This document shows, in pieces, positions 60,083 to 63,256 of a stretch of DNA of 64,000 nt (positions are counted from its first letter, which is position 1; every line of letters starts with the position of its first letter). The notes below the pieces were generated by a model. It searched no databases. It had not been told where the DNA came from and was given only the letters and a program-made list of their open reading frames with translations. A program made the translations under genes and the position numbers. The DNA is from Rhynchonema sp. JSB1_4 (taxonomy: Eukaryota > Nematoda > Chromadorea > Monhysterida > Xyalidae). The DNA lies in the NCBI GenBank assembly GCA_030248065.1, contig JASAMV010006607.1:1-64000 (forward strand). Reading direction: 5' to 3'.

Positions 60083-63000
60083 ATGAGCACAGGTTCAGCG
60101 AACGAAACTCGGGGTCCGATGGGTTCCAAGGGTGAGTGTCGAAGTTGAACTTTATTCATAAATCCCAATGGCAAAGCCGACTACCAGCCGTATGAGGAGC
60201 AAAGAATTCGTGTAATAGGGAACCCTGCTGACCTGTTATCGGACTTGTCATATGGCGATTTGAAAATTAACTCAAATTGTCGAAACTAACAATATCTCGA
60301 TTTTCAGCTTTCAAAATCGCGTTGGTTCAAATGCTGGTCGGGAAGGACAAGGCGGCCAACGTTGCCAAAGCAGTTAGTCGCGTCGCTGAGGCGTCCAAAG
60401 GTGGTGCGAAATTGGTTGTATTACCGGTTCGTTCATTTTTGCAGCCAGAAACGAAAATGCACGATTCATAAGAAAGCATTCATGTGCCTTGCTATTTCAG
60501 GAATGCTTCAATTCTCCATATGGTACCCAACATTTCGATGACTACAGCGAGCCGGTGCCTGGTGACAGCACACGGGCGCTCTCACAGGTTGGCAACTGAC
60601 TTGAGTGTTCAGTAGAATGTTGATGCCACGCGTTGAGTGAACAGAGCGCAGCGCTTTTTATGCCGTTTTCCACACTGAAAAATGTCATGCGGCATTCGAT
60701 CCTGGTGTTGAATTCGGCCAGAAAATATTTCACGAACGGTCCACTTTGCTTGTGTGTCTCAGTGGGTGTAAATGCATTCCCTGTTTTTTGTTTATTCGCA
60801 CGACCATCACACCAATGTTTGAATGCAACATTTGCTGCTGGCGATGTACTCCCAAACTACAATCACACGACACAACAGGCTGCGCGTGACAACCAAGTAT
60901 GGCTAATCGGTGGGTCCATACCCGAAAAAGGCGCCGACGGCAAGATCTACAACACTTGCGTTGCATTCGGCCCGACAGGCGATACGGTGGCGAAACACAG
61001 AAAGGTGAAATTTATTGATTAATTACGATTTTGATTTGCCTGGAAGTCCAGTTTACAGCTTGTACGAGCATTGCACACAACGCAAACGCACTTGTCAGTC
61101 ATTTTACGCTTTCGGGTTGGGTGCGTTGACTGCCACAGACTTGACGCTGTTATTGTGCCTTGATGTTGAACATTGAGCTAACACTTTATTTACAGGTCCA
61201 TTTATTCGACATTGATGTCCCTGGCAAGATCAAGTTTACCGAATCCGATGTTCTCTCTGCTGGTGATAAGCTGACTACATTTAGCACAGGTGGGTGAGTA
61301 TAATACACAAGGCTCTTGAATAACACAATTCAGGTTTTGTCCACACTGCTATTCAATATCACGTTAGAAAAAGCTATCACTGCAAAAATTTCCAGATTTC
61401 TGCAAAATCGGTCTCGGCATCTGCTACGACGTGAGATTCTGTGAGATGGCGCGCGTCTATGCGCTGCAAGGTTTGTGGTATTATTTGGCCATGTGCACTG
61501 AGCTCAGTGACAGAATGCAAAGTGTGCTTTTGTGGAATCAAATGCGCCGCTCTTCGCTGCGAACAAGTAAAAGTGGCGTAAAGTGGTCGCTGAAGTTGAG
61601 TCTTTCTCTCGTGCAACACTCTTGTCAGCAAAGGATTTTGTCAATTGCGATTGAGCTTTGTGCACATGGCTTTTCTTTTTCATTTCTTTTGCCGGTTTCA
61701 AACTTTCTGATCGCCGACCAATTCCAAAAAACCATTTGGTTGACAATGGGCGGCAAAACCAATCGTCAAGTTCGATTCCACCTTTTATCTCGTTGTTCCA
61801 AATAAGTGCACCGGTGTAGTTCCCACTCCCAGAGCATACTGTAGGTTGCGATCTATTGATCTATCCGACCTGCTGGCCCACCATTACGGCTCAAGCGCAC
61901 TGGCATTTGTACGCCCGCTCACGTGCGCACGTGAATGGTGTCTATATGGTTATGTGTGGCTGGCCGCCCTACCCTCCCGACGCAGACTCGGACTTTCTTG
62001 ACTTTCGACCGTATGGTCATAGTCTGGTGGCTGATCCTTGGTAAGAAAGGGTACGAAAACACTGGATGATTAGAAACCGGCATTGTCCACGCGTGAACAA
62101 ATTAGACGCTTGTGTTGGATGGAAATGGTTATTGCAGAATATTAGTGCCACGTGTACAAGCGTAGCTTAGGGTATTTGCGCACTGCCGTTCGCAGCTACA
62201 TTACGCTTTGGTACCAATATTTTGGAACTTACCTTGCAGTTTTTTTTCTGGTCTCGTCTGTATTGTCCACACCGTCGCGCTTATGCTTGCAGGCTGCAAC
62301 CTACTGGTCTACCCCGGCTGCTTCAATATGACCACCGGCCCCGCCCATTGGGAGCTGATGGCCCGTGCTAACGCCCTTGAACAACAATGTTTCACAGCAC
62401 TATGTTCGCAAGCTAGGGATACGCAGTCAGGTGGATATGTTGCTTGGGGACATAGCATGGTCGTGGAACCGTGGTGAGTTGTTTGTGCGAAAAAATTGGG
62501 TTTTGGTAAATTTGGTGAATGGTTCGGTCATACCCGTGGTTGGGCAAAAAAACGACGTTGTTCTTTTTGTCTGTCTGATTTGTCCTATTCTTTTGGGAAG
62601 TTACCGTAGTTTTCAATATGAAAAACGTTTCTTGGCCAAAACTGGCCATACATACCCGGTCGCTGTGTGGTCGACTGGGGACACCAAAGAAGACTGTGAA
62701 ACCCAGCAATTGACGAGACCATTTACCAAGTTTCGAGTTCTATGTGGCTTGTTAGTGCACAGCTTACTGGCGATGAGCTCCATGTCGCGTTTCAGTTCTT
62801 GTTTCACTTTTGCAAGCGTAAATGACAATGACGAATTTCAATGCCAGCAACCAACATTATTGTGTTCACTGCAATTGACCATGTCTGCCACTTTACGCAC
62901 CGAGGTGCAGAGCGCAGAATCTCAATGCAGGAATACTGGTTCCAGCTGTCATCGAACTTCGATATCTGTATTCAACATCTGCTGATTGTCTTCATATTTC

Positions 63001-63256
63001 GCAAATACGGTCCACATTCATTGCAGGGGTACGGTGATCGCAGATGCTGGTGAAGAGGAAATGATACTTTACGCTGACATTGGTATGTTTTTATCGTTTT
63101 TGATACAGTATTTTTTTTGTTGGTCGAAACCATAAAAAATCGATTGCATGCCTGTACGTTTTATCTGCAGATTTGAACAAGCAGAAGGAAATGCGAAACA
63201 TGGTGCCCGTTATGAAGCAGCGTAGATCGGATCTTTATGACACGATCGCGAAATGA
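60083..63256 (+). CDS. Nit2-type nitrilase-superfamily amidase (omega-amidase), two isoforms of 295 and 290 aa
   Basis: The family deaminates alpha-ketoglutaramate and related omega-amides in the cytosol or mitochondria. Exons: 60083-60131, 60308-60426, 60501-60587, 60879-61004, 61196-61289, 61396-61470, then either 61845-62040 or 62293-62473, then 63027-63082 and 63171-63256. Both versions stay in frame to the stop. Catalytic residues are present: Glu57 in [10 protein letters not shown], Lys127 in [13 protein letters not shown], Cys168 in [10 protein letters not shown]. Other family marks are [19 protein letters not shown] and the end MKQRRSDLY. The version with the second alternative exon carries the canonical [17 protein letters not shown] and [15 protein letters not shown] and is clearly Nit2-like. 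The version with the first is strongly diverged. The start codon is the first ATG, and the intron after 16 codons is in phase. Confidence 0.93.
61845..62040 (+). other. nitrilase alternative exon A (diverged)
   Basis: It starts in phase 1 and ends in phase 2, exactly as exon B. It encodes [39 protein letters not shown], a longer loop [14 protein letters not shown], then [12 protein letters not shown]. It is homologous to exon B (C.LL.YP.C, AHW, AR, GHS.V..PW) but replaces the NMTTGP loop and the Glu of HWE (here HWH), and carries a five-residue longer insertion. Splice sites are TAG|GT and TG|GTAAGA. Confidence 0.85.
62293..62473 (+). other. nitrilase alternative exon B (canonical)
   Basis: It has phase 1 to phase 2 and encodes [39 protein letters not shown], then [14 protein letters not shown], which agrees with ordinary Nit2. 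If A and B were both spliced in, the frame after A (196 bases) would be lost in B, so a protein can contain only one of them. Confidence 0.87.

Follow-up and report, generated by a model that had tools for sequence, protein, structure and literature searches.

In nematodes, annelids and molluscs, the coq-2 gene carries two mutually exclusive exons, 6a and 6e, of 134 nt each, and the choice between them switches the substrate of the encoded polyprenyltransferase; the same source names CYP4F3 as a further splice-switched enzyme and calls such switches rare (PMC7434440). In a later study, two residues of the coq-2 exon were tested by genome editing (PMC8659336). In the nitrilase family, Nit2 converts alpha-ketoglutaramate to alpha-ketoglutarate, a step of glutamine breakdown (PMC12864753). 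The structure of a plant N-carbamoylputrescine amidase, MtCPA, has been solved: its catalytic cysteine is Cys158, Ala183 and Ile184 help to wall the pocket midway, and Glu187, which sits at the entrance, fixes the charge and length of the substrate; the entrance is also walled by neighbouring subunits (PMC4812014). Here we describe a nematode gene of the Nit2 type with two candidate exclusive exons for its pocket segment.

The gene and its exon pair

The window is the whole stretch of DNA that was analysed, 64,000 nt from Rhynchonema sp. JSB1_4 (positions 1 to 64,000 of contig JASAMV010006607.1, hereafter C4053), and the assembly searched comprises 204 Mb in 5747 contigs. Reconstruction of the spliced frame gave a complete Nit2-type gene on the plus strand at window positions 60083-63256, with introns that are all of the type GT...AG. 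The features, with the basis of each in brackets, are the following:

60083..60131, + strand: exon 1, with the start codon (spliced frame)
60308..60426, + strand: exon 2 (spliced frame)
60501..60587, + strand: exon 3, with Glu57 of the catalytic triad (spliced frame, alignment)
60879..61004, + strand: exon 4, with Lys127 of the catalytic triad as its last codon (spliced frame, alignment)
61196..61289, + strand: exon 5, with the invariant Glu143 (spliced frame, alignment)
61396..61470, + strand: exon 6, with the triad residue Cys168 and the invariant Arg172 (spliced frame, alignment)
61539..61736, + strand: 198 bp of the intron that precedes exon 7A, absent from the second copy of the gene (copy comparison)
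61845..62040, + strand: exon 7A, 196 bp, divergent pocket, helix and loop segment (open frame, phases, splice sites, homology to 7B, dN/dS)
62041..62292, + strand: intron between 7A and 7B, 252 bp (compared with the second copy)
62293..62473, + strand: exon 7B, 181 bp, near-canonical Nit2 pocket segment (phases, splice sites, frame, homology)
63027..63082, + strand: exon 8, common to both isoforms (spliced frame)
63171..63256, + strand: exon 9, common to both isoforms, with the stop codon (spliced frame)

Glu57, Lys127, Cys168 and Glu143, the last of which we take to be the fourth catalytic residue of a nitrilase-type enzyme, are all encoded in shared exons, and the triad is invariant in an alignment of 15 rows, in agreement with a preliminary description of this DNA that had assigned the three triad residues to the shared exons. 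Both isoforms are full-length CN_hydrolase proteins by the PF00795 profile (cutoff 23.2 bits), isoform A, made with exon 7A, scoring 218.3 bits and isoform B, made with 7B, 239.5 bits. Among 7989 candidates scored, isoform B scored best with an omega-amidase from the nematode Plectus sambesii, at 66% identity; having the CN_hydrolase domain, the Glu-Lys-Cys triad and omega-amidases as best relatives, isoform B is classed as a Nit2 omega-amidase. Isoform A has the CN_hydrolase domain and the catalytic triad, and on its sequence we class it as a divergent product of the Nit2 gene and withhold the class of omega-amidase by activity.

Exons 7A and 7B are both entered from exon 6 (which ends in CAAG at 61470 and is followed by gt) in the same phase, and the last two bases of each begin a Trp codon; 7A holds 64 whole codons and 7B 59, with one split codon at each end. 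Exon A is preceded by tactgtag and followed by gtaaga, exon B by gcttgcag and gtgagt. In a search of the 204 Mb assembly, the exon A peptide found exon B at E = 6.0e-7 with 38% identity and the exon B peptide found exon A at E = 7.1e-7; the exon A peptide by itself clears the PF00795 cutoff (26.8 vs. 23.2 bits). When the two gene copies were searched by tblastn with A and B, no third copy of the exon better than E = 0.19 was found.

As the lengths of the two exons are each 1 mod 3, double inclusion or double skipping leads to an early stop. The product is 295 amino acids long with A alone and 290 with B alone in both copies of the gene; read by frame, inclusion of A+B gives a stop after codon 274, inside exon B, and inclusion of neither exon a stop near the beginning of exon 8, after codon 186, again in both copies. 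Coordinates, homology search and product lengths thus agree with the preliminary description, which had proposed two homologous exons 252 bp apart with common phases and GT/AG sites, each restoring the frame when used alone and breaking it when combined. Neither the A+B nor the double-skip form should give a working enzyme. By arithmetic, the A+B stop lies ~158 nt upstream of the last junction, and from their frame the wrongly spliced transcripts would be expected to decay, less surely so for the double-skip form because its stop is only ~45 nt before that junction.

Competing RNA pairing between introns, as a possible mechanism of exclusion, showed no clear excess: duplex energies equally low were reached by 26, 18 and 3 of 60 Markov-resampled controls, the 3 belonging to the strongest pairing, between intron 6 and intron B-8. 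The two exons are adjacent, homologous and of the same phase, each alone restores the frame, both or neither are predicted to be unproductive, and both are constrained between the copies of the gene, on small numbers. We regard it as very probable that 7A and 7B form a mutually exclusive pair, and we infer that both exon junctions would be used in RNA.

Putative pocket wall, helix and loop in the two predicted isoforms

We compared the residues of the two exons with a set of 237 relatives, formed by the best 120 of 7957 and the best 120 of 572 matches with three in common. Phe194 and Gly199 are fixed in 237/237 relatives, and exon A has Trp and Ala at these positions; position 192, occupied by G, A or S in 237/237, is T in exon A, and Pro195 of exon A is found in 0/237. 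The changes in the pocket wall from B to A are G192T, F194W, N195P, T197I, G199A and P200Q, and the family pocket segment PGxFNxTTGPxHWE is not matched by isoform A, which has [14 protein letters not shown]. The glutamate of the HWE motif (E204) is replaced by His in exon A, as it is in 95 of the 237 relatives, and HWH instead of HWE is also found in yeast YLR351C. When the 33 columns conserved at ≥95% among the best 120 relatives were considered, exon A departed from 15 and exon B from 5.

Exon A had been described as lengthening the segment, and it is indeed 5 residues longer than B, with A residues 223-226 lying opposite gaps in 237/237 relatives. The description of exon B as ordinary holds nearly throughout, but at position 210 it carries Asn, and 237/237 relatives and exon A carry Arg. 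Exon A keeps this R210 and also GHS. Each exon has thus lost something that the other keeps, for which reason exon A appears unlike a decayed copy of the present-day B. The claim that the choice of exon would swap only the substrate-facing part was overstated, as two further elements are encoded in the exon: the helix HWxLxARxxA, which by nitrilase architecture we take to be part of the dimer interface, and the strand following it.

The pocket positions of the plant amidase correspond to offsets of +25, +26 and +29 from the catalytic cysteine. Counted along the sequence from Cys168, with the shared YP motif as a guide and on the assumption that there is no gap up to +29, they would fall on positions 193, 194 and 197, each of which lies within the swapped exon. 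The residues in B and A are Cys and Cys at 193, F and W at 194, and T and I at 197. Splicing from exon 6 to 7B would give a near-ordinary enzyme, and splicing from exon 6 to 7A would give an isoform in which the triad is the same, the segment is longer, and both the pocket wall and the helix that follows it are different. As the exons differ at Cys+26 and Cys+29, two positions that line the pocket of the solved plant enzyme, the most likely effect would be an altered preference for omega-amide substrates.

Our main reading is that the exclusive exons retune the substrate pocket around a shared catalytic centre, and we put its probability at roughly 0.6; the helix of the dimer interface is probably retuned by the exon choice as well. 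The substrate may nevertheless stay the same when the pocket is altered, given that changes of pocket residues in helical plant nitrilases are reported to have largely failed to alter specificity (PMC6214922). It is possible, though we would put it somewhat short of even odds, that one nitrilase gene gives two active amidases with different substrates, the exons having divided the ancestral pocket segment between them; this view draws on exon A keeping the R210 lost by B and exon B keeping the F194 and G199 lost by A. If it is true, mixed A/B dimers would add a third form of the enzyme.

The main rival to a substrate switch is an inactive or regulatory isoform A. The exons would still be exclusive, but isoform A would be a weak or dead form that pairs with B via the swapped helix and lowers or relocates its activity, or would have a nonenzymatic role. 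With F194 and G199, invariant in 237/237 relatives, replaced and 15 of the 33 conserved columns changed, isoform A might be inactive. The helix [16 protein letters not shown] furthermore belongs to the swapped segment, and in nitrilases the helices at this location form the dimer interface; the walling of the pocket entrance by neighbouring subunits in MtCPA (PMC4812014) points the same way. On the other hand, the catalytic triad is present in isoform A through the shared exons, one of its changes, HWH, recurs in 95/237 relatives and in yeast YLR351C, and both the R210 of 237/237 relatives and GHS are kept. We consider such a regulator unlikely, yet a reading to be taken seriously.

A second copy of the gene and the constraint on exon A

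The assembly contains a second copy of the gene on contig C2597, collinear and with both exons intact, and the protein identity between the copies is 95% for A' and 100% for B'. Twelve BLAST blocks of >150 bp are collinear between C4053 53469-65863 and C2597 at 89-99% identity, and from 65861 on C4053 has its collinear partner in the end of contig C5121, with blocks of 91-99% identity. From this arrangement, C2597 followed by C5121 is probably the other haplotype of the region, broken by insertions; alternatively, the second copy may stem from a recent large duplication. In a peptide search that scores only its best candidates, two loci alone in the assembly match the A and B peptides at E < 0.03, each with both exons, and the other nitrilase-family members of the genome were seen only by the Pfam profile or at weaker E-values. 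The divergence between the copies is patchy, being about 20% in introns 4 and 5, 13/553 in intron B-8 and 0/88 in intron 8, and about 840 gap columns in intron 4 reflect a large insertion in the second copy. For the stretch at 61539-61736, no match besides itself was found in the assembly; its presence in one copy could affect exon choice between the haplotypes.

Between the copies, exon A has 11 nucleotide differences in 10 codons and no indel. Seven of the codon changes are silent and three are replacements (M218V, V219A and D229G), and third positions take 8 of the 11 differences. Compared with a neutral expectation of 22-26% silent changes, this gives a dN/dS of about 0.14 (0.12-0.15; P value 0.002-0.005 for kappa 1-3) in a small sample of 10 changed codons. 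The codon changes number 5 silent and 0 replacement in exon B and 13 silent and 4 replacement in the shared exons, and the intron between A and B has 31 substitutions and 7 gap columns; the 12 positions before exon A and the 11 after it are unchanged. The pattern suggests that exon A is constrained much like the shared exons and less than B.

Exon A could alternatively be a fading duplicate that is spliced in rarely or never, and its 3 replacements between the copies, against 0 in B, as well as the failure of protein database searches to find an A-like protein elsewhere, are what one would then expect. The silent excess and the absence of indels in A argue against a dead duplicate, and its dN/dS of about 0.14 (P value about 0.003) goes together with an absence of stops and with splice sites kept in both copies; stops or decay had been named in advance as what would refute a live exon A, and none are seen in the second copy. 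Exon A is moreover only 38% identical to B, its frame having stayed open through a long divergence. In simulations, 151 of 2000 frames were still open after 150 random substitutions and 1223 of 2000 after 11, and because of the latter number we do not count an open frame alone as proof. We hold a fading duplicate to be improbable.

It is decidedly improbable that exon A is chiefly a regulated poison exon, whose inclusion together with B destroys the transcript and tunes the level of the enzyme. The stop of the A+B form, in exon B after codon 274 and about 158 nt before the last junction, is placed suitably for this; a poison exon, however, needs no conserved protein frame, whereas A is constrained at replacement sites and gives a full-length protein when B is skipped. 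An assembly artefact or a misjoined paralogous exon, for which the fragmentation into 5747 contigs might speak, is hardly credible, as a second contig, about 95% identical and with different flanking indels, shows the same exon order.

Among 5.8 billion database proteins, no A-like protein sharing three 5-residue words with exon A was found, and in the wider protein search W194 and the insert of A were absent from the best 120 of 572 matches; the search works on shared 5-residue words in predicted proteins, and diverged or unannotated A exons may escape it. Against solved structures, the exon A peptide scored 42 bits with yeast YLR351C, 38 with mouse Nit2 and 26 with NitFhit. A tree of the segment (32 rows chosen of 241 aligned, 60 columns) put A toward the omega-amidases, a placement that is not firm, and gave it a very long branch (about 2 changes per site). 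An origin of exon A from another nitrilase gene was rejected, no source closer than B having been found in the assembly. We also rejected a drift of isoform A toward N-carbamoylputrescine amidase: the TIGR03381 profile gave 134.0 bits for A and 119.3 for B, but 8/8 ordinary relatives span 105.1-148.8 bits, and the profile had no match to the exon A peptide alone. The genome further contains a Nit1-Fhit fusion gene (NitFhit) on contig C3183 and 15 matches to PF01060, presumably the nematode-specific transthyretin-like family (the 14 control genomes being prokaryotic); together with the match of isoform B to Plectus sambesii, these speak for a nematode origin of the DNA. Neither the Rfam SL1 model nor the exact SL1 string had a match in the assembly, which does not prove the absence of SL1.

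Comparison with known systems

The preliminary description knew of no nitrilase whose substrate loop is set by splicing, and our search agrees with it: in open-licence full texts, we found neither exclusive exons in a nitrilase or omega-amidase nor alternative splicing of a nematode omega-amidase, the known cases, COQ-2 and CYP4F3, belonging to other families. To our knowledge, no other member of the nitrilase superfamily has a pocket set by splicing, and if one gene does give two active amidases by exon choice, this would be the first. A pair of natural isoforms that share the catalytic centre and differ in the pocket segment would also allow a clean test of what determines specificity in the superfamily.

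Within the superfamily, mouse Nit2 (2w1v) has the triad in common with both isoforms and scores 380.6 bits with isoform B and 332.9 bits with isoform A; yeast YLR351C (1f89) is the other Nit2/omega-amidase structure used for comparison. All of the best 120 relatives (120/120) have F194, G199, N195 and T197, where exon 7A has W, A, P and I. The NitFhit gene, which is of the Nit1 type, is like the Nit2 gene in its superfamily and in the catalytic motif CYDxRF; it differs in that an intron at another place, after HWHV, interrupts the homologous segment, and the A peptide found no match there.

Among enzymes of other families, CYP4F3 is similar to what we propose in that splicing alters the substrate preference of the enzyme core, and differs in being a cytochrome P450 with a tissue-specific choice (PMC7434440). 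COQ-2 shares more of the arrangement of 7A and 7B: two alternative internal exons are used one at a time and replace part of the enzyme core, and by arithmetic its 134-nt exons are 2 mod 3 and would break the frame if combined, as the Nit2 pair would. The two differ in fold and reaction, and while the exons of COQ-2 are equal in length and have been studied with RNA and functional tests, those of Nit2 differ by 15 nt and are predicted from DNA. Nit2 would be the second candidate among nematode metabolic enzymes for retuning by mutually exclusive exons.
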